Assembly (NCBI RefSeq): GCF_937129435.1 | Contig: NZ_CAKZNF010000016.1 | Location: 1 to 64,000 of the forward strand | DNA from: an uncultured Parasphingopyxis sp. | GTDB lineage: Bacteria > Pseudomonadota > Alphaproteobacteria > Sphingomonadales > Sphingomonadaceae | Reading direction: 5' to 3' | Length of the DNA stretch: 64,000 bases | Shown: piece by piece, positions 50,443 to 63,895 of the stretch | Numbering within the stretch: the first letter of the stretch is position 1 | Layout of the letters: every line of letters starts with the position of its first letter | The notes under the pieces: generated by a model | Told to the model about the DNA's origin: nothing | Seen by the model: the letters and a program-made list of their open reading frames with translations, nothing else | Database searches by the model: none | Program-made: the position numbers and the translations under genes

Positions 50443-51690
50443 CTAAATGGTTACTTTTCCGCCCTTAACCACGATCTCTGCGGCATTGGGATGGCTGAGG
50501 AAGTTTTGCGGGCTGGCGCTTAAACCATATGCGCCCGAGGCGAAGACGGCGACGAAATCGCCGATGTCCGCGCGCGGCACGGCGATCTGGTTGGCAAGGC
50601 GGTCGAGGGGCGTGCAAAGCGGGCCGACGATCGAGGCGGTTTCGACCGGCTCGGCACCCATTTGGCTGGCGATCGCAACGGGATAGTTGCGCTTCATCAC
50701 CATACCGAAATTGCCGGTTGCGGCGAGATGGTGGTGCATCCCGCCATCGGTGACGAGGAATATCTCGTCCTTGCTTTGCTTGCGGTCGAGGATTTGCGCG
50801 ACATAGACGCCCGCCTCACCGATCAGCCAGCGGCCGAGTTCGATCATGAACTGCGTGTCGCGGAGAATATCGGGGCGCGACGTCAAGGCGTCATCGAGCG
50901 TCATGCCGACCGCATCGACGTCGAGCGGCGTATCGTTCGCCGTATAGGGAATGCCGAAACCCCCGCCGAGATTCACGGTTTCCGGCGCTTTTCCGATCTC
51001 GTCCGCCAGGTGTGCCGCCAATGCGATACTGGCGGCCTGACAGTCTGCAATCGCGCCGGCGTCGAGCGACTGGCTGCCCGAATAGATATGGAAACCGCGC
51101 CAGTCGGCACCGGCATCGAGCAGTTTGCGCCCGAGCGCGGGCACGCGATCCTGGTCGATGCCGAAGGGCTTGGCGCCGCCGCCCATGCTCATCCCCGACC
51201 CCTTCAGCTCGAAATCGGGATTGACGCGGATGGCCAGTCGCGGCGTGACGCCAACCCGTTCAGCCGCTGCCAACGCCCGATCCGCTTCGGTTTCCGATTC
51301 CAGATTGAGCGTTGCGCCGAGCGTGAGCGCCAGTTCGATCTCTTCGTCGCGCTTGCCGGGGCCGGCAAAGCTGACGTCATCCATAGCCGCGCCGCAATCG
51401 CGAACGGTGGCCAGCTCGCCGCCCGAAGCCATGTCCAAGCCATCGGTGATCGGAATAAAATGTTTTATGACAGCCGGATGAGGATTGGCCTTCACAGCAA
51501 AATGCAGGTGCACGGCTTCAGGGATTGCTCCACGAAACCGCTCGACCTGCGCCGTCGCGAGGTCGAGATCATAGGCGTAGAATGGCGTTTTCCCCGCCTT
51601 TCCGGCCAATTCGGATACGGTGAAGCCGCCGATCCGCAATTCGCCCCGCTGATTTGCGAAGGCCAGTGGAATGGGGCCGATCGGCTTCAT
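50443..51690 (-). CDS. PLP-dependent decarboxylase, exosortase A-associated (TIGR03099-like)
   Basis: TPFYAYDLDLATAQV...HFAVKANPHPAVI...VNLGGGFGIPY...MVGPLCTPLD-like segment SIVGPLCTPLDRLA. Confidence 0.88.
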   Translation of the reverse strand: MKPIGPIPLAFANQRGELRIGGFTVSELAGKAGKTPFYAYDLDLATAQVERFRGAIPEAVHLHFAVKANPHPAVIKHFIPITDGLDMASGGELATVRDCGAAMDDVSFAGPGKRDEEIELALTLGATLNLESETEADRALAAAERVGVTPRLAIRVNPDFELKGSGMSMGGGAKPFGIDQDRVPALGRKLLDAGADWRGFHIYSGSQSLDAGAIADCQAASIALAAHLADEIGKAPETVNLGGGFGIPYTANDTPLDVDAVGMTLDDALTSRPDILRDTQFMIELGRWLIGEAGVYVAQILDRKQSKDEIFLVTDGGMHHHLAATGNFGMVMKRNYPVAIASQMGAEPVETASIVGPLCTPLDRLANQIAVPRADIGDFVAVFASGAYGLSASPQNFLSHPNAAEIVVKGGKVTI

Positions 51691-53195
51691 GCGGCGAATT
51701 CCTTCTCGATGGCCGTTCGGTCCAGCTTTCCGTTCGGATTGCGCGGCAGTTCGTCCTGCCACACAATGTCGCGCGGCTGCATGAAATTCGGCAATTCGGC
51801 TTTCAAATAGCGTCTGAGCGCTTCGTCCTGCACGCCATCGCTGCCCCGGACCACCAGCTTGATGGCCGCGCCCAGTCGCTCGTCGGGCACCCCGAATGCC
51901 ACGGCCTCTGCAACCATAGCACTGGCGACAGCGGCATCTTCGATTTCGCTGGGGCTCACGCGGTTCCCGGCGGTTTTTATCATCGAATCATCGCGGCCGA
52001 CGAAGCGCAGAAAACCTTCCGCATCGCGTATGACCGTATCGCCCGACCAAACGGCCGTGCCGCCATATTCGGAAAATGAGGGCGCCGGTTTGAAGCGGAT
52101 CGCCGTGCGCTCGGGATCCTGCCAATAGCCTTGTGCGACGAGCGGGCCCGCATGGACGAGTTCGCCCGGTTCGTCCGGCGCCGCTTCGCTGCCATCCGGC
52201 GCGACGACCATGGTTTCGGCAAAGGGAATAGCCCGGCCGATGCTTTCGGGCATCGCATCCAGCAGCTCGGGATCGAGGGTGGTGGAGCGAAACGCTTCGG
52301 TCAGCCCGTACATGGAGTGAATGCGCGCCGCAGGCCAGGTGTCACGCATCTTTCGTACCAGCGGCACGGGCAGCTTGCCGCCGGAATTGGTGAGCGTGCG
52401 GAGCTGTCTTGCGACGTCATCCTCCCATTCGAAGTCGACAAGCTGCACCCAGAGCGGCGGGACGCCTGCAAGAACAGTGACGTCATAGCGGCCAACCGCC
52501 TTCATCACGTCGCGCGGCATCAGATAATCGAACGGGATGACGCTTGCCCCGGCATACCAGCTGGAAAGCAGCTGATTCTGTCCATAGTCGAAGCTGAAGG
52601 GCAATACGCACAACGTCCGGTCGTCCGCCGCAAGCCCAAGATAATGCGCCACACTGACGGCACCGAGCCACATATTGGCATGGCTGAGCATCACACCCTT
52701 GGGCCGCCCGGTCGAGCCCGATGTGTAGAGAATCGCCGCCAGTTCGTCGGGTGAAGCATTGGACGGCGTCATCGCGTCACCCACAAGGGCGACGTCACCT
52801 TCATCGGCCGTGCGGCAGCCGGTCGGCACGTCGCCTTCTTCCAAAGATCTAAGGCGACTCGCACCAGCGATGAGCAGCTTGGCTCCGCTATCGGCCAAGA
52901 TATGCGCGACTTGCGCCCGTTTCAGCAGCGGATTGACCGGGACATGCACCAAACCCGCCCGCGCGGCGGCCAGCGGCATGATGCAGGCGAGCCGCGTCTT
53001 GTTGAGCCAGCTCGCGACGCGATCGCCCGGAATGAGCCCCTGCCCCGCCAGCCATGACGCCATCGCGCCTACGGCGGCATCGAGTTGGCCATGCGTCATG
53101 CTGCCCGTCTTGTCCGTCAGCGCGATCGCATCGCGCGCGCCGCGCAACGTCAGATGGTCGAGCGGCTTGGGCTCGGGATTTAAGTCTTTCGTCAT
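51687..53195 (-). CDS. Acyl-CoA ligase (AMP-forming), exosortase A-associated (TIGR03098-like)
   Basis: AAILYTSGSTGRPKGVMLSHANM, YGLTEAFRSTTLDPE, GDTVIRDAEGFLRFVGRDDSMIKTAGNRVSPSEIE. Confidence 0.92.
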   Translation of the reverse strand: MTKDLNPEPKPLDHLTLRGARDAIALTDKTGSMTHGQLDAAVGAMASWLAGQGLIPGDRVASWLNKTRLACIMPLAAARAGLVHVPVNPLLKRAQVAHILADSGAKLLIAGASRLRSLEEGDVPTGCRTADEGDVALVGDAMTPSNASPDELAAILYTSGSTGRPKGVMLSHANMWLGAVSVAHYLGLAADDRTLCVLPFSFDYGQNQLLSSWYAGASVIPFDYLMPRDVMKAVGRYDVTVLAGVPPLWVQLVDFEWEDDVARQLRTLTNSGGKLPVPLVRKMRDTWPAARIHSMYGLTEAFRSTTLDPELLDAMPESIGRAIPFAETMVVAPDGSEAAPDEPGELVHAGPLVAQGYWQDPERTAIRFKPAPSFSEYGGTAVWSGDTVIRDAEGFLRFVGRDDSMIKTAGNRVSPSEIEDAAVASAMVAEAVAFGVPDERLGAAIKLVVRGSDGVQDEALRRYLKAELPNFMQPRDIVWQDELPRNPNGKLDRTAIEKEFAA

Positions 53196-53256
53196 CGCTT
53201 GGCGTTAGGTCCCGTTTCGAATTGCCGCGTCGTGCGGCGCCCGGGATAGCGCCAAG

Positions 53257-54249
53257 ATGGTTGACGTAAAGTTATTCGATACGCTCGACGCCGTCGCCGC
53301 CGATGCGGACGGCGCGCTCGACCGTGCGAAGCAACCCGGTCTCTACAATCGGCTCGAATGGTATCGCCGCACCGTCAAAGACGGAAACCCGCATGCGCCA
53401 TTGGTGGCCAGGGCGCGCAACGCCAAGGGAAGCGCCTGGCTCTTCCTCGATCGCAAGCCTGGCGGCGCCCAAGCGCTGGCAAGCTGGTATACGCTGGATT
53501 TCGGTCTTTCCGGCGAGGGCGAGACCGAAGCGTCGACCGAGGCATTGGCGCGCAACCTCAAGCATCTCGCGCGTATCGAACTCTCGCCCGTCGGCGACCC
53601 CGAACCGATCGCCCGAGCATTTCGGAATGCGGGTTGGAAAGTGTTCGTCGAACCGAAGACCGAAAACTGGTTCCATCGCATGCCGAACGACTTCGAGACC
53701 TATTGGGCGAGCCGGCCGAGCCGGCTGCGCAACACGGTCAAACGCAAGGCGAAAAAGGCGAATCTCGACATTCGTATCCATCGGACGTTCGACGAGGCCG
53801 CATGGGACGATTATCGGACGATCTACGCGCAGAGCTGGAAAGGCGAGGAAGGCAGCTGGCCCTTCATGCGCGACTTCGCAGAGACGGAAGGAAAAGCCGG
53901 GACACTCAGGCTGGGCGTCGGGTATATCGACGGCGAACCGGTAGCCGCTCAGCTATGGACGGTCGAAAACGGTCAGGCGACGATCCACAAGCTCGCCTAT
54001 ACCGAAGCCTCGAAGAAGCTTTCGCCCGGTTCGATCCTTGGAGAGGCGATGTTTCGGCATGTCATCGAACAGGATGCGCCCGCCATTATCGACTATGGGA
54101 CGGGCAGCGAGCCCTACAAAGCCGATTGGATGGACGAAGTCCGGACGCTCTATCGCATCGAAATGTTCAATCCGCGCCGCCCCGGTGCATGGTTTGCCCT
54201 GGCGAAGCGCCTGATTTCCGGCCTTGTCCGGCGCGGCGCACAAGGCTAG
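53257..54249 (+). CDS. GNAT/CelD-like acetyltransferase
   Basis: RPSRLRNTVKRKAKKANLDIRIHRTFDEAAWDDYRTIYAQSW...IDGEPVAAQLWTVENGQATIHKLAYTE...IDYGTGSEPYKADW. Confidence 0.82.
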   Translation: MVDVKLFDTLDAVAADADGALDRAKQPGLYNRLEWYRRTVKDGNPHAPLVARARNAKGSAWLFLDRKPGGAQALASWYTLDFGLSGEGETEASTEALARNLKHLARIELSPVGDPEPIARAFRNAGWKVFVEPKTENWFHRMPNDFETYWASRPSRLRNTVKRKAKKANLDIRIHRTFDEAAWDDYRTIYAQSWKGEEGSWPFMRDFAETEGKAGTLRLGVGYIDGEPVAAQLWTVENGQATIHKLAYTEASKKLSPGSILGEAMFRHVIEQDAPAIIDYGTGSEPYKADWMDEVRTLYRIEMFNPRRPGAWFALAKRLISGLVRRGAQG

Positions 54250-54280
54250 GCGAGCCGCAAACAGGGCGTGAGGAAATTTC

Positions 54281-54553
54281 ATGACGTCAACCGGAGCCGA
54301 AAAGGTCGATCAAACGCTGCGGGCGGTGCTTGTCGACGTGCTGGGGCTGAGTGCGGACGAAGTCGGCAAGTTCGACGAGGGAACCGAGCTTTTCGGCGCG
54401 ATTCCGGAGCTCGATTCGATGGCGGTCGCCGGATTGCTCACGGAAATCGAGGAACGGCTCGGCATCTGGATCGACGATGACGAATTCGAAGCGGAAATGC
54501 TTGAAACTTACGGCAATCTCCTCGTCTTTTCGCGAGACAAGGCGCTCCAGTGA
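54281..54553 (+). CDS. Acyl carrier protein, exosortase A-associated
   Basis: 90 aa; LFGAIPELDSMAVAGLLTEIEERLGI with the DSM phosphopantetheine Ser motif. Confidence 0.9.
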   Translation: MTSTGAEKVDQTLRAVLVDVLGLSADEVGKFDEGTELFGAIPELDSMAVAGLLTEIEERLGIWIDDDEFEAEMLETYGNLLVFSRDKALQ

Positions 54554-55242
54554 GCCCGCCTGAGCCGCGCTATCGCGAATATGCCTGGCGCGACGGGCGC
54601 GAATGGATGCTCGAACTGGGGCCGGAGAACGGTCCGCGGCTGCTGATCCTTCCGCCCCTGCTCGAGGAGCTCAATCGCTCCCGAAAACTGCTGACCGACA
54701 TGATGCGCGACCTCGCGGTCGCCGGGATCCTCAGCGTGCTTCCCGATCTGCTCGGCACGGGCGAAAGCCTTCAGACGATCGATGCCACTGATTGGGAGGA
54801 CTGGCGTGACGCCATGACGTCACTCGTCCAGGAGCAGCAGTTTTCCGGCATTTTCTCGCTCCGCGGCGGATGCCTGCTCGACGACTGCAGTACCGTAAAA
54901 GCGATGCGCTTTGCGCCCGTTGCCGGGAAAAACCTGATCCGCGACCTGATCCGCGCGCGCGGCGTTACGGACAAGGGTTTCGACGCAGTAGCGCAGAAGG
55001 CCGTGTTCGAGACCGGACCGACCATGCTCGGCGGTTATCCGGTGCCGGTCGCGCTCGCCCGCGCGCTCCGCGACGCCGATCTGCCCGAGCGCGCCGATGT
55101 CACCACCGGCCGTTTGGAAAGCGACGTTCCCGACGCCGATTTCAAGATCGACGGCACGCCGGTCTGGCGGCGTGCCGAACCGAGCGGATCACCGGAATTC
55201 TCGCGCGCGCTCGCCAATAAAATCGTCGATTGGTTAGCCTGA
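54550..55242 (+). CDS. Exosortase A-associated hydrolase 2-like protein (TIGR03101-like)
   Basis: LILPPLLEELNRSRKLLTDMMRDLAVAGILSVLPDLLGTGES; between ACP and hydrolase 1 genes. Confidence 0.82.
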   Translation: MSPPEPRYREYAWRDGREWMLELGPENGPRLLILPPLLEELNRSRKLLTDMMRDLAVAGILSVLPDLLGTGESLQTIDATDWEDWRDAMTSLVQEQQFSGIFSLRGGCLLDDCSTVKAMRFAPVAGKNLIRDLIRARGVTDKGFDAVAQKAVFETGPTMLGGYPVPVALARALRDADLPERADVTTGRLESDVPDADFKIDGTPVWRRAEPSGSPEFSRALANKIVDWLA

Positions 55243-56060
55243 TGCGCAACCTGTTTGCCATTCCATGTGAAGAAGATTGGCTCGGCGCCACGCTGGACGC
55301 CGCGGATGGCGAGACCGGCGTTCTCATGGTCATCGGCGGCGGTCAGACGCGTATCGGCGCACATCGGGGCTTTGCACAGCTCTCTGCGGCGCTGACAGAG
55401 GCCGGCTATCCCTGCCTGCGTTTCGACCGCCGGGGTGTTGGCGATAGTTCGGGCGAAGATCCGGGCTTCGAAGACACCCTCCCCGAAATCCGCGCAGCGG
55501 CAAGCGCTTTGCGGGAGAAATGCCCGTCCGTCCGCAGCGTGATCGGCTATGGCCTGTGCGACGGCGCGACGGCGCTGGCCTTGCACGGCGCGGCGGCTGG
55601 GCTGGACGGCATGATCCTCGCCAATCCCTGGGTCGTCGAGGCGCAGGCGAACGAGCCGCCGCCTGCCGCCATCGGCAAACATTATCGTGAGCAATTGATG
55701 AGCCTTGATGGCTGGAAGCGCCTGCTGACGGGCGGGATCGATTACCGAAAGGCCGTCCGCGGCGTCATGAAGATCGTCAGGAAGCCCAAGTCCGAAGGCG
55801 CCGGCAGCCTGGCGGAGCGCACGGCCGCTGCCATGGCGTCAGGGCCCCTGCCCGCTCATGTCGTGCTCGCCGAGGGCGATGCGACGGCGATCGCCTTCGA
55901 TCACGAATGGCGAAAGGGCGCGATGCAGGCTCTTTCATCGGAACCGCGCTTCACCTGCGACCTGATCGATACCGACGCCCACAGTTTCGCGCATGACGGC
56001 AATTTCGAACGGCTGCGCGATAGCTGCCTGTCGGCGCTGGAGCGGTTTAAGGCCGCATAG
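55242..56060 (+). CDS. Exosortase A-associated hydrolase 1 (TIGR03100-like)
   Basis: VMVIGGGQTRIGAHRGFAQLSAALTEAGYPCLRFDRRGVGDSSGE...VIGYGLCDGATALAL. Confidence 0.88.
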   Translation: MRNLFAIPCEEDWLGATLDAADGETGVLMVIGGGQTRIGAHRGFAQLSAALTEAGYPCLRFDRRGVGDSSGEDPGFEDTLPEIRAAASALREKCPSVRSVIGYGLCDGATALALHGAAAGLDGMILANPWVVEAQANEPPPAAIGKHYREQLMSLDGWKRLLTGGIDYRKAVRGVMKIVRKPKSEGAGSLAERTAAAMASGPLPAHVVLAEGDATAIAFDHEWRKGAMQALSSEPRFTCDLIDTDAHSFAHDGNFERLRDSCLSALERFKAA

Positions 56061-57132: not shown

Positions 57133-57178
57133 TGGTAGCGGAGGAGGGACTCGAACCCCCGACACGCGGATTATGATT
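57133..57178 (-). pseudogene. 3' fragment of tRNA-Met(CAT), probable att-site remnant
   Basis: Reverse complement AATCATAATCCGCGTGTCGGGGGTTCGAGTCCCTCCTCCGCTACCA: part of the anticodon arm with CAT, variable loop, T arm, 3' acceptor strand and CCA. The 5' half is absent. Confidence 0.85.
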
Positions 57179-57208
57179 TTAACGGAAACATCGCGGAGAC
57201 GCGTCTAC
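57135..57208. repeat. att-like direct repeat, copy A (tRNA remnant plus AACGGAAAC...AGACGCGTCTAC)
   Basis: Shares GTAGCGGAG, GATTATGA, AACGGAAAC and AGACGCGTCTAC in the same order and orientation with 59278-59330. Confidence 0.65.
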
Positions 57209-58332
57209 ATCGATTGTGCCACACATTTCGGCATAGTTAATTCGAAGCGAGTTTCAGAGCGGTCAGAGAACACCCGCACTTCACCACCGTGAGCCTGAGC
57301 GATTTCCTTCACGATGAAAAGGCCCAAACCCAAGCCCTTCTCGCGATTTGAAACCTCCCCACGCTGGAAGGGCATGAAAAGCTTTTCGCGAGCCGCTTCA
57401 GGGATTGGGTCGCCCTGATTGACAACACCAAGGTGCAATTGATCGCGTTCGACCCGCGCTTCTAGCACAATAGGTTTGGACCGATCTCCATATCTGACTG
57501 CATTAGCCAGGAGGTTAGAAACAAGCTGTCCAATTCGGTGGGTATCGCAATCGACCTCTTCCAAATCCCAAAGTTGGCAATTAATTTCTACATCAGTAGC
57601 GACGGCTGTTATCTCTTGGACCACGTGATGCAAAACGTCTGCTAGACTGTCTTTGTTTGAGTAGTCGAGCGGGATGCCCGTCCCCAACCGCCCCCTGGCG
57701 AAATCGAGCACGTCGTCGATCAGGTCACTAGCGCGCACGAGACTTTTCCTCATCTCCCCTATTACGGTCGATGTGCGTTCGTCCGCTTCTGCATGTCGCT
57801 CCAATATCCGCGTCCCAGCCGCTATCGCCGCGAGCGGATTGCGCAGATCATGACCGAGAACGGCAATGAATTGATCCCGCAGCTCCAGTTGCGAGTGTTC
57901 ATTCTTAAACCGCTCTTCAGCCCTGACCCTAGCCTCGACCAACGAGCGCTCGAATTTCAATCGTTCGGTCGCTTTAAACAGCGTGAGCCGGGTAAACAGG
58001 TGCTCCCCGTTCGGTCCCCGCTTCTCCTTGGCATTCCCAATAACGGGAATCTTGTCAGCGTCACCAAGTTGCAGGTCGAACGCGATCTCGTGAGCTTCGC
58101 CTTGCAGCCGCAGCATCGGTGCGAGATGCGTCTCGAAAGCGATCTTGCCACCGAACGACAGGATCGTATGGACCTGCTTGCCCACCAAGTCGTCCGGTGA
58201 GCAGTCCAACCAGTCGGCCAAAGTTTGATTCACCTTCGCAATCCGCGCATCCGGAGTGACTGAGAGATACCCGCACGGAGCTTCGTCATAGAGCTCCGCT
58301 AGGTTCTCAGTTGGAATATCTGAGGAAGTCAC
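57205..58332 (-). CDS. PAS domain-containing sensor histidine kinase
   Basis: N-terminal PAS-like ELYDEAPCGYLSVTPDARIAKVNQTLADWLDCSPDDLVGKQVHTIL; HisKA LRDQFIAVLGHDLRNPLAAIAAG; HATPase NLLANAVRYGD and REKGLGLGLFIVKEIAQAHGG. No TM segment seen. Confidence 0.9.
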   Translation of the reverse strand: MTSSDIPTENLAELYDEAPCGYLSVTPDARIAKVNQTLADWLDCSPDDLVGKQVHTILSFGGKIAFETHLAPMLRLQGEAHEIAFDLQLGDADKIPVIGNAKEKRGPNGEHLFTRLTLFKATERLKFERSLVEARVRAEERFKNEHSQLELRDQFIAVLGHDLRNPLAAIAAGTRILERHAEADERTSTVIGEMRKSLVRASDLIDDVLDFARGRLGTGIPLDYSNKDSLADVLHHVVQEITAVATDVEINCQLWDLEEVDCDTHRIGQLVSNLLANAVRYGDRSKPIVLEARVERDQLHLGVVNQGDPIPEAAREKLFMPFQRGEVSNREKGLGLGLFIVKEIAQAHGGEVRVFSDRSETRFELTMPKCVAQSM

Positions 58333-59116
58333 GGATCGCGTTAGTTACCTCGTCTGGCGCACTAAGATTAGGGCAGTGCCCGGTCGCGCGAAGCAACCTG
58401 TATTCGCTGTTCGGCAATTTGGCGTGGACATATTGCCCGACTACTTCTGGAGCGATGATGTCTTGCTGGCATTGAAGAATGAGGGTCCGTGCGGTGACGT
58501 CCGGCAGATCCTTCCGGTTATCTCCGTAGAATGTCACCCTAGCGAATTCACGAGCGATGTCCGGGTCGGTTGCGCAAAACGATTTCGTCAACCGTTCACC
58601 CAATTCCGGTCTATCGTCGTTGCCCATAATCTGGGGTGCCATTGCCGCCGACCAGCCGAGGTGGTTCTCATCGAGGAAGCTTATCAATTCTTCGATCTGC
58701 GTATTTGAGAAGCCTCCCACGTAATCGTCGTCGTCGATGTAACGGGGCGATGGGCCGACCATCACGATCTCGCTAAAAAGATCCGGTCCCTTGATCGAAG
58801 CGAGGGCGCCGATCATGGCGCTGACAGAATGTCCAATGACTACAGCATTCCGAAGGTCAAGCGCGTCCCCGATCTCGACCAGATCTGACGCATAGCCATT
58901 GAGCGTCGAATACTTGGCTGAATCGTACGCAGATAAATCTGAGTGCCCAGCACCTACGTGATCGAAAAGCACGACTTGAAAGTCTGCCTCGAATTTGCGC
59001 GCGACGTCCTTCCACATGTGTTGATCACAGCCGAAGCCGTGAGCAAAAACTAGCGCTCGTCCCTCGCTGCCGCGCACCGACACATTGTTTCGAGTTAGAA
59101 CGAGATCATCCCCCAT
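58307..59116 (-). CDS. RsbQ/KAI2-type alpha/beta-hydrolase
   Basis: LTRNNVSVRGSEGRALVFAHGFGCDQHMWKDVARKFEADFQVVLFDHVGAGHSDLSAYDSAKYSTLNGYASDLVEIGDALDLRNAVVIGHSVSAMIGALASIKGPDLFSEIVMVGPSPRYIDD...LILQCQQDIIAPEVVGQYVHAKLPNSEYRLLRATGHCPNLSAPDE follows B. subtilis RsbQ (recalled) nearly end to end; Ser/Asp/His triad positions present. Confidence 0.92.
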   Translation of the reverse strand: MGDDLVLTRNNVSVRGSEGRALVFAHGFGCDQHMWKDVARKFEADFQVVLFDHVGAGHSDLSAYDSAKYSTLNGYASDLVEIGDALDLRNAVVIGHSVSAMIGALASIKGPDLFSEIVMVGPSPRYIDDDDYVGGFSNTQIEELISFLDENHLGWSAAMAPQIMGNDDRPELGERLTKSFCATDPDIAREFARVTFYGDNRKDLPDVTARTLILQCQQDIIAPEVVGQYVHAKLPNSEYRLLRATGHCPNLSAPDEVTNAIRDFLRYSN

Positions 59117-59246
59117 GCTCGGGGGTTCTAGAACTCTTTGCAGATTTCGCAAACTGCGATGAAGTTATGGATTGGTGAGAGCCAATGCTCGGTTTTTGAT
59201 AGGTGGCCTTCAACATCGTCCCTCCTCGCCCTCGAAGTCCACATCC

Positions 59247-59277: not shown

Positions 59278-59330
59278 GTAGCGGAGCCGCAGATTATGAA
59301 CCCAACGGAAACGTGCGTAGACGCGTCTAC
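59278..59330. repeat. att-like direct repeat, copy B (degenerate) ending in the perfect palindrome GTAGACGCGTCTAC
   Basis: GTAGCGGAGCCGCAGATTATGAACCCAACGGAAACGTGCGTAGACGCGTCTAC; copy A with the T-arm portion missing. Confidence 0.65.
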
Positions 59331-59385
59331 GTAGACTTAAATGGTTTGTAGCGTCGGCTCTTGGCGATACTCTCTTATCCGGCGG

Positions 59386-59489: not shown

Positions 59490-60806
59490 CTATGGTTGGC
59501 GGGCCAGATCCTCGCGCCGCCGATCTATGCTCGTAAATGTGCCATCGGAATGCGATATTTCGAGTTTTTCAATGCGGCCATTGTCGTCTCGTATGAACCG
59601 ATAACGCCGGAGCGGATTTTCGGCGCTGTAGAACAGATCGTTATCAATCGGCACGAGCGCTCGTGCTGGCCTGCTTCCAACCTGAACTTCCAAGCCCGTT
59701 TCGCTTAGAATGACGACCAACCGGCCGTATATGCCTTCAAAATCAGACAGATCCATCTCGGGAACGCTACGTTCATCAAGAGCCGACCGCGCCCATGCCC
59801 AATCGAGCTGATAGACCGCGTTTCCGCTTTCTAATGCCGCATCCAGGGCAAGAATCTGGCCGCGTCGCAACGCATCATCGGCGGAAGTGGCAACATCGGG
59901 AAGGACTCCCACGCCTTCCCAATTTGTGCCAGTGATCGGGTTGATCGTCGAACCTATCGAGATGAAAACTTCAAATCCGCTTCCCGCGTCGAATACGCCC
60001 CCCGGATTCGCGGCACCACTGGAGGGCTCGCCGATTATGGTGGCACGACCCACAGCCTGCAGCGAATAAGCCAACGCTTCGGGAGCGGGTCGCGTTCTAG
60101 CACTGATCAAGATGTAGAGCGGAACATCGACGCGAGGCGCCGGGTAGGGGACAACTGGCATTCTATCTTCCCGGCCCGATCGCGACTGGTATATACTGTG
60201 CACCAAGGCGCCTGGCTCCGTAAATGCGCTAATCAGATACCCGACCATCCATGGAGATCCACCAAAGTTGTCCCGGAGATCGATGATCGTAGCGTCGGTG
60301 TGTGACACGAGATCCAGTGCTCCCTTGGCGCTCCGCAAGGCTGGATCGTCAACATTATTGAAATCGATGTTGGCGAACGAGGCCATATCGATATATCCTA
60401 TATTGCCCGGTAGTATTTTAACCTCGCGAAATCCAAATCCGGATCGACGGACGGCGTCTTCAATTCCGTAGAGTAGCTGTCCTCTCTGATCCCTTGACAC
60501 GACAGTTTCCGAATCTCGGCTGCGCGGCGACCAAGAGACGTCGAAATGCCGATCATGCGGGGTCAGAAAGTTGGTCAGTGCGGTAGCGAGTTCCCGCGGG
60601 TCGGATATGGAATCCCATGTGCCCGCTGCACTCGCCGCGCGTAATTCACCAGAGATCGCTTCGGCTCGCGCCTCATTGTAGAAATTTGTTTCGATAAGCG
60701 CGGCGACGTCGTTTGCGACGATGCGCGAATTCATCTGTTGTGCGTGAGATGGTGAAAGGGCGAGCACCAGCGCGGCCAACCAAATCACAGCAAATCGCAT
60801 ATTCAA
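59490..60806 (-). CDS. S41 family peptidase-like protein, secreted, catalytic Ser apparently lost
   Basis: Signal peptide; GNIGYIDMASFANIDFNN, IDLRDNFGGSPWMVGYLISAF, ILISARTRPAPEALAYSLQAVGRATIIGEPSSGAANPGGVFD. Confidence 0.82.
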   Translation of the reverse strand: MNMRFAVIWLAALVLALSPSHAQQMNSRIVANDVAALIETNFYNEARAEAISGELRAASAAGTWDSISDPRELATALTNFLTPHDRHFDVSWSPRSRDSETVVSRDQRGQLLYGIEDAVRRSGFGFREVKILPGNIGYIDMASFANIDFNNVDDPALRSAKGALDLVSHTDATIIDLRDNFGGSPWMVGYLISAFTEPGALVHSIYQSRSGREDRMPVVPYPAPRVDVPLYILISARTRPAPEALAYSLQAVGRATIIGEPSSGAANPGGVFDAGSGFEVFISIGSTINPITGTNWEGVGVLPDVATSADDALRRGQILALDAALESGNAVYQLDWAWARSALDERSVPEMDLSDFEGIYGRLVVILSETGLEVQVGSRPARALVPIDNDLFYSAENPLRRYRFIRDDNGRIEKLEISHSDGTFTSIDRRREDLARQP

Positions 60807-60954
60807 ATCACCTCCCGAAAAAAGCTAGATCGGAATTTGGGCTGCCGCAACGGTGCACCGGTCCGATCCGCGATAGTCTCGACGAAGGTTGAAGTGATTT
60901 CGACACACGCCGCCAACCGGCCCATTGGCGGACCATGGACAACTTTGTAACGAA

Positions 60955-61016
60955 CGTCTGTCATCCACCCAGTGCAGACATCCCACGTCTGTCATCCACC
61001 CAGTGCAGACATCGCA
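60955..61016. repeat. Two tandem 31-bp units CGTCTGTCATCCACCCAGTGCAGACATCSCA
   Basis: Units 60955-60985 and 60986-61016 differ at one base; each has GTCTG/CAGAC inverted ends. Confidence 0.8.
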
Positions 61017-61224
61017 CATTTCGAGGAACACAGGCAAGCTGCCGGTCCGCTTCCAGGAGGACCGCAAAGCCCCTCGAATGTCTGACATGGGGCGCTCTGC
61101 AGTCATCATATGGGCCCTACGCTAGCGTCTGCTATTGGGACGTTTGCTGACCGACCGGTTTTGGTTTTCGCCAGGATACACCAGCCGGGCCGCCATCCAG
61201 CTCGCCGTTGAACGCGGTAAGGTT

Positions 61225-61252
61225 CCGTTGTTGGGTGGGAAAGCGAACATCG
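61225..61252. repeat. Degenerate member of the TTGGGTGGA repeat family
   Basis: CCGTTGTTGGGTGGGAAAGCGAACATCG resembles 59386-59416. Confidence 0.4.
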
Positions 61253-61668
61253 AAGCGAAGCCTTGGCGTGGCGGCAAAACCGGGTGCGGTTCAAAACCAT
61301 GGTTCGGCGATAACCAAAATTATAAGCAACGCCACGTTTACAACTGCCAGGCCGATCAATTCGCCTCGAGACGTTGGCCGATCATACAAAATACCCGGCT
61401 CGCCAGTAGTTGAAACCTGAGACAAGCGACTGGCGGACGAATGGCTTTTGCCATGTCGCGCCAGCCCCGCTTGCCTGCGCGGTTTGACATGCTCCTGCAC
61501 TCTGGGTCGTTCATGCATCGCGCTGCAGGATAGCTACCAATGATTAAAATTTGCAATTTCCGTTGAGATTCAGCGAGCGATTGATTTGCGAACGGGCACT
61601 GGCCCCTTTCTACGGTTACGTTCAAGAGAGACTGCGGCAGCCCAACGCACCGAGGAGCTGGTGCTCGT

Positions 61669-61869
61669 TTATTCCGTCTGTGTCCGAACATTTTTTGCGA
61701 GTGTCTTGAACCGATCGCCATTTGGCTGTCGAACCGTCAGCGTCCAGTTTCCCCCACTGCTCTCGTGCAAATCTTCCACTACGCCGGCCTTGCCTTGATG
61801 AACACCGCCGACGACGGTGCACTTGTCGCCATTTTGGATTGAGGGATTCGCGCTCCCGTTATTAATCAT
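61669..61869 (-). CDS. Small KOW-motif protein (66 aa)
   Basis: MINNGSANPSIQNGDKCTVVGGVHQGKAGVVEDLHESSGGNWTLTVRQPNGDRFKTLAKNVRTQTE; KOW-like GDKCTVVGGVHQGKAGVVEDL. Confidence 0.6.
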   Translation of the reverse strand: MINNGSANPSIQNGDKCTVVGGVHQGKAGVVEDLHESSGGNWTLTVRQPNGDRFKTLAKNVRTQTE

Positions 61870-61903
61870 CCCAATTCCTCCCGATTGGTAGCTTTCCGGT
61901 CGA

Positions 61904-62509
61904 CTATCGTAACGGTCGATAAACAAGCCGCATCCAGCGCGCTTCCTCTCCTCCCATATCGGGAGAAAAGTAATCGTGGATCTCTGCATTTCCTTCCCGA
62001 TGAATCTGGACACGCAACGGAGTGGATTGGCCGACAATTCTGTTTGTTACGCTGCCTTCAAGTTGACCGGTGCCGTCGGCTGCCAGCCTACCATGCAGCG
62101 TAGCGACACCGGTGCCGGTTGTATCCATCCAAACATACCAATGTTGCTGCAACGACGTATCGTATCCGGTGAAGCCCCGGCCTTCGAACGCATCATTGAC
62201 TTCCGCAAGCCCCTCCACGTGCAACTCCAAGACTCTGCCGCCCAGAACAATTGACCGGGTGGCTGCCAACTCGGTGTCAACGGGATCGACGTCGGGTGAA
62301 AACCAGACCGTCGAGCTTAACGTATACCGCCCAGCCATGGCCGCCAAATGATCATGCTGCTGTTGCAGGTCCGTTGACGAGCGCCGGTCCGCGATGAACG
62401 CTTCTGCCTGAGTTCCAACGGCACCTCCGGCATCCGTGCAGAAGAGCAGCAGGGTCGTCGCCAAGAGTAAGGTTTTTGCATTCAATTGCTGTGCCATGAT
62501 CGCAATCAA
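61904..62509 (-). CDS. DUF1579-like secreted protein
   Basis: Signal-like N-terminus; HDHLAAMAGRYTLSSTVWFSPD...FEGRGFTGYDTSLQQHWYVWMDTTGTGVATLHG. Confidence 0.65.
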   Translation of the reverse strand: MIAIMAQQLNAKTLLLATTLLLFCTDAGGAVGTQAEAFIADRRSSTDLQQQHDHLAAMAGRYTLSSTVWFSPDVDPVDTELAATRSIVLGGRVLELHVEGLAEVNDAFEGRGFTGYDTSLQQHWYVWMDTTGTGVATLHGRLAADGTGQLEGSVTNRIVGQSTPLRVQIHREGNAEIHDYFSPDMGGEEARWMRLVYRPLR

Positions 62510-62522
62510 CCCACCTTATTCC

Positions 62523-63074
62523 CTAGTCCTCGGCTGCCCTCATCTGATGTTGCGACAAGATGCGTTGCCAGTCTTCGGGCGACAATTGTGGCGGCGGTTC
62601 GCCCGGTTGCGCGCCGACCTCCCGAAAGAAATTTGCAATATCGGGCTCGGGAAAAATAAACAGTATCGTGCTGTCGCTTTCCCCGTCGCTGGAAACGCCG
62701 TGCCGGGTGCCTGGGGGGATGACCATCAATGTTCCCGGTTCAGCTTCCGCTTGCGTCGATCCCAGAGTGAGCGTGGGACGCCCCTCGTGCACGAAGATAA
62801 CTTCTTCATAACCATCGTGAATATGAACCGGGATTCCGGTGCCATCAGGTATATGTTCCGTTCCGACCATCAATCCGGTTGCACCGCTGTTTTCAGTCGT
62901 CACTTTTAGGATCGCACTGCGTCCATCGGGGAAAAGCAGCGCCTCACCGTCGTGAGGCGCCAATATGAGTGGACCGCCCGCTGAAGAAGAGGTTGTATCA
63001 CTTTCAATCGGGTGTGATTGTGCGAGGCTTGGCAAGGCCACCAATATGGTTAGCGCAGAAAAGAATGTTTTCAT
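62523..63074 (-). CDS. Cupin domain-containing secreted protein
   Basis: Signal peptide; IPVHIHDGYEEVIFVHEGRPTLTLGSTQAEAEPGTLMVIPPGTRHGVSSDGES. Confidence 0.85.
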   Translation of the reverse strand: MKTFFSALTILVALPSLAQSHPIESDTTSSSAGGPLILAPHDGEALLFPDGRSAILKVTTENSGATGLMVGTEHIPDGTGIPVHIHDGYEEVIFVHEGRPTLTLGSTQAEAEPGTLMVIPPGTRHGVSSDGESDSTILFIFPEPDIANFFREVGAQPGEPPPQLSPEDWQRILSQHQMRAAED

Positions 63075-63385
63075 GCCGCCGTCTTTCTCCGATGCGAGCG
63101 ATCATTCGCTGATCAGCACCGGTCTCATACCATAATCTTTGTCCGAATTGCACAGGAACCGACGAGGTTGGCGTCACACAGGCTACCCAGCAGCGGAACA
63201 CATGCGGCAAACCGAAGTCGCTCGTGAGTGACCGCGATTTAGGTGTGTTTTCGACCTCGTCGCGATGCACCTTCAGTTGCTCGCGAGTTGACGGTTGCAG
63301 AGCAGCCAGAGCTAGATGTCCGCTTTCAGATCGAAAACCTCGAGCTTTGTTGAAGACTGTTGGCGCACTTGGATGAGGAACAGCC

Positions 63386-63895
63386 ATGACAACGCAAGCG
63401 AGTGAACAGCGCGATACTGACGCGACCCATATTCTCTCGAGCGACCATCGGACGGTCGAGGACCTGTTCGAGAAATACGAAAATGCCTCAGGCACCGATC
63501 GCAAGCGCGAGATTGCAGAGAAAATCTGCACCGAACTGAAGATCCATGCGCAGATCGAGGAAGAGATTTTTTACCCCGCACTCGAAGGCAAGATCGACCA
63601 GGACTTGCTCAAAGAGGCCTATGTCGAGCACGATGGTGCAAAGGTGCTCATCAACCAGATTGCCGAAGGCGGACCCGATGAAGAGTTTTACGACGCCAGG
63701 GTGACGGTGCTCAAAGAGCAGATCGAGCACCATGTGGAGGAAGAGGAAAAGCAGCGCGACAATATGTTCCAGCAGGCGCGCGCTGCCGACGTCGACCTCC
63801 ATGCGCTTGGTGAGAAGCTGATAACCCGCAAGGAAGAACTCAAAGCGCAGGCCGAAAAGCAAGGCCTGCCGCGTGCCGAGCTAACCACCGCCTAG
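63386..63895 (+). CDS. Hemerythrin HHE domain protein
   Basis: ILSSDHRTVEDLFEKYENA...LKIHAQIEEEIFYPAL...YVEHDGAKVLINQI...QIEHHVEEEEK. Confidence 0.92.
   Translation: MTTQASEQRDTDATHILSSDHRTVEDLFEKYENASGTDRKREIAEKICTELKIHAQIEEEIFYPALEGKIDQDLLKEAYVEHDGAKVLINQIAEGGPDEEFYDARVTVLKEQIEHHVEEEEKQRDNMFQQARAADVDLHALGEKLITRKEELKAQAEKQGLPRAELTTA

Follow-up and report, generated by a model that had tools for sequence, protein, structure and literature searches.

The RsbQ–RsbP system of Bacillus subtilis, in which a hydrolase (RsbQ) is paired with a PAS-domain protein (RsbP), is part of a wider class of bipartite modules. The survey by Nadezhdin, Brody and Price (2011) comprised 45 RsbQ/RsbP-PAS pairs, whose outputs are phosphatases, diguanylate cyclases or, in Gram-negative bacteria, histidine kinases; the Gram-negative examples of RsbQ with a PAS-histidine kinase include an Erythrobacter protein (PMC3183031). 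The RsbP class of PAS domains is defined by nine residues (C10, L13, L48, b53, a55, h56, n59, E72, and P86), and in B. subtilis the exchange F55A in RsbP abolishes signalling as well as RsbQ binding (PMC3183031). Two models have been proposed for the module: either the hydrolase passes a product to the PAS domain, or the hydrolase itself acts as the receptor and transmits the signal through contact (PMC3183031). A search of the open-access literature found no later study of the RsbQ-PAS kinase branch.

Here, we analyse such a pair in a stretch of 64,000 nucleotides (“the window”; positions 1 to 64,000 of contig NZ_CAKZNF010000016.1, assembly GCF_937129435.1) from an uncultured Parasphingopyxis sp. 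of the Sphingomonadaceae. The RsbQ gene is directly upstream of the PAS gene, and both reading frames have the coordinates, strand and overlap given in a preliminary description made from the sequence (Table 1); translational coupling across this overlap is probable.

Table 1. Features of the hydrolase–kinase locus and of the adjoining island end (window positions)
Feature	Position	Strand	Remarks
RsbQ-type alpha/beta hydrolase, 269 aa	58307..59116	-	putative triad S97, D219, H247; 1wom E 4e-91; ATG at 59116, alternative TTG start possible at 59152
Soluble PAS-HisKA-HATPase histidine kinase, 375 aa	57205..58332	-	GTG start at 58332; phospho-acceptor H161 in HDLRNPL; Pfam, AlphaFold, Foldseek
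RsbP-type PAS, about kinase residues 10-120	57973..58305	-	Ala65 = RsbP F55 position, Phe60 = RsbP position 50
26-nt overlap, hydrolase stop / kinase start	58307..58332	-	different frames
46-nt 3' tRNA-Met fragment, right end of island	57133..57178	-	identical to positions 32-77 of intact tRNA-Met
att-like direct repeat, copy 1	57165..57213	.	overlaps tRNA fragment and kinase stop; families D2, D3
att-like direct repeat, copy 2	59288..59335	.	upstream of hydrolase, about 83% identical, degraded

The preliminary description had called the hydrolase RsbQ/KAI2-type and listed four RsbQ motifs, GFGCDQ, GHSVS, QQDIIAPE, and GHCPNLS, all of which are present in the sequence. Among structures in the PDB, B. 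subtilis RsbQ (1wom) is the best match by far (phmmer; E 4e-91, 308 bits over 261 residues, 6-266), followed by a bacterial homologue with 241 bits and by plant KAI2/D14 proteins with about 200 bits or less. The triad motifs around S97, D219, and H247 are invariant among seven hydrolase orthologues, and a whole-genome comparison with the hydrolase revealed no other protein above 36 bits. Judged by these matches, the hydrolase is a true RsbQ orthologue.

The kinase consists of one N-terminal PAS domain followed by HisKA and HATPase_c, as had been described, with Pfam matches of 9e-15 for HisKA, 2e-20 for HATPase_c and, weakly, 2e-4 for PAS_9; its output is thus HisKA/HATPase_c and not the PPM phosphatase of RsbP. 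In an AlphaFold model built from a 26-sequence alignment (mean pLDDT 84.9), PAS residues 20-120 reach a pLDDT of about 95–97 and are followed by a continuous helix, 121-180, which includes H161 and provides the helical or coiled-coil link to the output that is typical of the module. Best full-length Foldseek matches are soluble PAS/LOV kinases (e.g., YF1, 4gcz), and the absence of a transmembrane segment is borne out by Kyte-Doolittle analysis, in which the highest 19-residue mean is 1.02. The H-box HDLRNP, the N-box and the G2 box are invariant; the G1 box reads NQGDPI, unlike the textbook DxGxG, which counts against a standard kinase output. The PAS domain has no DIT motif.

Pairing of hydrolase and PAS gene is obligate in the genomes surveyed. 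Among 201 genomes of the family, nine hydrolase matches were above the cut-off; seven genomes, including that of the window, carry an RsbQ orthologue with at least 62% identity, and the kinase follows directly downstream in all seven, compared with neither of the two paralogues at 34–35%. In a wider survey of the 80 best-scoring RsbQ homologues from GTDB species genomes, a sample biased to close relatives, an RsbP-like PAS gene lies downstream in all 78 cases with enough downstream DNA. The PAS domains of other RsbQ partners are 32–80% identical to that of the window, which, together with the confident AlphaFold fold, confirms the domain that Pfam matches only weakly. As for outputs, kinases of the HisKA class are widespread in Alphaproteobacteria. 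Hybrid kinases bearing a C-terminal receiver come from Mesorhizobium, Chelativorans, Methylobacterium and Microvirga; in Actinomycetota there are outputs that look phosphatase-like, an assignment made by reading the sequences. Within 8 kb at 12 loci of the near clade of the window, only hydrolase and kinase recur, with no conserved third gene. RsbQ identity, the conserved pairing and a soluble kinase output therefore stand from the hydrolase-PAS-kinase sensor put forward in the preliminary description, and the coupling is not a new one, since the pair falls inside the published RsbQ-PAS-histidine-kinase class (PMC3183031). The preliminary description had overlooked three features treated below: the alanine at the position of the RsbQ-binding aromatic residue, the stand-alone receivers that often adjoin the pair in relatives, and the genomic island.

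The pair is, hence, ordinary in kind and soundly evidenced, with one oddity—a natural equivalent of F55A. RsbP numbering was transferred to the PAS domain of the window from the published spacing rather than by alignment to the RsbP sequence; the anchors P62, H59, basic 53, C10, L13, L48, E72, and P86 all fit without gaps, and in this numbering eight of the nine class residues are kept (C10, L13, L48, K53, F56, H59, E72, P86), while position 55 is occupied by alanine instead of an aromatic residue. Of 95 sequences compared, 41 have F at position 55, 36 have Y, 13 A, three L, and one each H and V. Alanine is found in 13/13 sequences inside the clade of the window versus 0/82 outside. As these 13 sequences make up exactly one clade of the hydrolase tree (support 100/99), the change most simply arose once and was then kept during divergence to a PAS identity of about 50–80% within the clade.

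The same clade has gained an aromatic residue close by: phenylalanine is present at position 50 in 12 of the 13 Ala55 sequences compared with one of the 82 others. This gain makes it probable that the F-alpha interface was remodelled and not lost; given that an ideal helix would separate positions 50 and 55 by about 140 degrees, we infer remodelling rather than assert it. No hydrolase column that could compensate, i.e., one conserved to at least 85% inside the clade and at most 15% outside, was detected. Considering that alanine at position 55 destroys RsbQ binding in B. subtilis, contact between hydrolase and PAS domain in this clade is not guaranteed. A natural F55A-equivalent clade with an aromatic residue five positions away is, in turn, a ready-made test of RsbQ–PAS contact.

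The partner response regulator is of interest, as none had been noticed adjacent to the pair, and indeed no receiver domain is encoded in positions 55000-73068 of the contig. Neighbourhoods were compared at 43 HisKA-type loci, 31 of them outside the clade of the window. At 13 of the 43 loci, 14 stand-alone receiver genes in all are found no more than 0.7 kb from the pair, compared with six in the rest of the flanking DNA, which is four times as long (p about 9e-7). All 13 loci are among the 31 outside the clade of the window, inside which no stand-alone receiver was found within 0.7 kb. Some of these receivers are encoded 3–65 bp behind the kinase in the same orientation (Sphingobium, Novosphingobium, two loci of genome G739), others are convergent, with 2 bp between the stops, or divergent upstream of the pair; they are single-domain proteins of more than one subtype. 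A three-gene hydrolase-kinase-receiver unit, with the receiver directly beside the pair, is present at loci L008, L009, L010, L011, L022, L071, L091, L146, and L147. The presence of a stand-alone receiver so close at 13 of these 31 loci suggests a receiver-only response regulator as the partner of RsbQ-linked kinases. For the Gram-negative branch, the downstream partner has so far been missing, and receivers that adjoin or are fused to the kinases of relatives are a pointer to it. The genome of the window encodes 23 receiver domains, of which an orphan single-domain receiver of 134 aa (C52:21890-22219) is closest to most of the neighbouring receivers (30–41% identity); it is a candidate partner of the window kinase, unproven because neither the window nor its clade has an adjacent receiver.

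The pair is located at the right end of an island that is inserted in tRNA-Met and measures at least about 16 kb. This is evident from a tRNA-Met fragment adjoining trxB, from the intact copy and its arrangement in congeners, and from the GC content, which is 63.5% (sd 2 per kb) up to the fragment, drops there to 55% and stays low. According to a near-exact search for the 3'-end pattern, the sole intact tRNA-Met of the genome is in another contig (C9; L166:7329-7405), and the DNA upstream of it in congeners adjoins an intact tRNA-Met and then trxB. In congeners, the same tRNA-Met site is either intact or differently interrupted; it is an insertion hot spot. ARAGORN reports no tRNA in the window, because only the 3' fragment is left. 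No integrase was found beside the island end, and the nine phage-integrase matches of the genome are on other contigs. In genome G759, the pair lies about 5 kb downstream of an intact tRNA-Met, with neither a tRNA fragment nor a clear GC drop seen.

The hydrolase-kinase pair is bracketed exactly by two att-like direct repeats that contain a palindrome of the GTAGACGCGTCTAC type, and 38 matches in 48 positions would be expected by chance at about 2e-14 per position pair. Since the second, degraded copy is situated just upstream of the hydrolase, the repeats suggest that the pair came in separately, as a 2.1-kb unit without an integrase of its own. Horizontal acquisition on the island fits the patchy distribution of the pair. 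Other island cargo (59490-63895 and L167) comprises an S41 peptidase, a DUF1579 protein, a secreted cupin and a hemerythrin-domain protein, as well as likely carotenoid-oxygenase-like and thiolase-like proteins, recognised by reading the sequence only. At 60954-61015, a 31-nt unit is present in two tandem copies (97% identical). At 51687-56060, there is a row of genes for an acyl-CoA ligase, a GNAT/FemAB-like protein, an acyl carrier and two hydrolases, which we take to resemble an exosortase/PEP-CTERM-associated set.

Taken together, the pair very probably is an RsbQ-PAS bipartite sensor with cytosolic histidine-kinase output that was acquired horizontally on the tRNA-Met island, and we include the following signalling path in this reading. 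The hydrolase would bind, and perhaps slowly cleave, a small molecule and touch the PAS dimer at its F-alpha face, a contact that would be remodelled in the clade of the window by alanine for the essential aromatic residue at 55 and phenylalanine at 50. The change would travel along the continuous helix 121-180 and set autophosphorylation of H161, from where the phosphate would pass on, most likely to a stand-alone single-domain receiver whose gene lies elsewhere. That the hydrolase might supply or bind a ligand read by the PAS domain corresponds to one of the two published proposals.

It is possible, albeit somewhat short of an even chance, that the Sphingomonadales-centred clade uses a rewired interface, with an Ala55/Phe50 surface or pocket orthogonal to that of RsbP, and that its members are natural specificity variants signalling to an orphan receiver. 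Alternatively, the PAS domain might have given up direct RsbQ contact, the hydrolase merely making a diffusible product that the PAS domain binds, with position 55 free to drift. A residue that blocks RsbQ binding in B. subtilis (PMC3183031) and is fixed in all 13 clade members, together with the lack of a compensating hydrolase column, is what this would predict; yet Ala55 is invariant instead of drifting, Phe50 accompanies it in all members but one, the other null positions (L48, Y/H59, E72) are retained and the hydrolase-kinase pairing is kept at 12/12 loci, which makes loss of contact unlikely.

Less probable still is that the pair is non-functional or a cargo remnant of a decaying island with no current signalling role. 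The low GC content, the broken tRNA copy, the degraded att repeat and the rarity of the orthologue in the family would suit such a remnant, but both reading frames are intact, the catalytic motifs have persisted, and across the clade hydrolase and kinase have stayed together as a unit with 50–80% identity. An unrelated metabolic esterase that has a kinase as its neighbour by accident is a barely credible identity for the hydrolase: its Pfam matches do include the general Abhydrolase_6 and Abhydrolase_1, but RsbQ is the top structural match by a wide margin and kinase/PAS adjacency is universal among the orthologues surveyed.

Compared with known systems, the bipartite sensor of the window shares with B. 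subtilis RsbQ-RsbP an orthologous hydrolase and a PAS domain of the RsbP class, but its output is a histidine kinase instead of a PPM phosphatase, and it is without the sigma-B partner-switch output. With the plant karrikin and strigolactone receptors KAI2 and D14, it has the hydrolase family and catalytic motifs in common, whereas these proteins are less similar to the window hydrolase than is RsbQ, and their partner is an F-box protein rather than a PAS kinase. Soluble PAS/LOV kinases of the YF1 and FixL type match its single PAS domain, continuous signalling helix and HisKA plus HATPase; their PAS domain, however, contains an internal flavin or haem, while that of the window is read together with a separate hydrolase. 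The closest counterpart is the Gram-negative module of Nadezhdin and colleagues, which agrees in the RsbQ gene immediately upstream, the N-terminal RsbP-type PAS domain, the single HisKA/HATPase output, the Gram-negative host and the lack of a DIT motif (PMC3183031). From this module, the pair of the window differs in its location on a tRNA-Met island and, against the published class-defining residues, in carrying alanine at the F55 position and phenylalanine at position 50.
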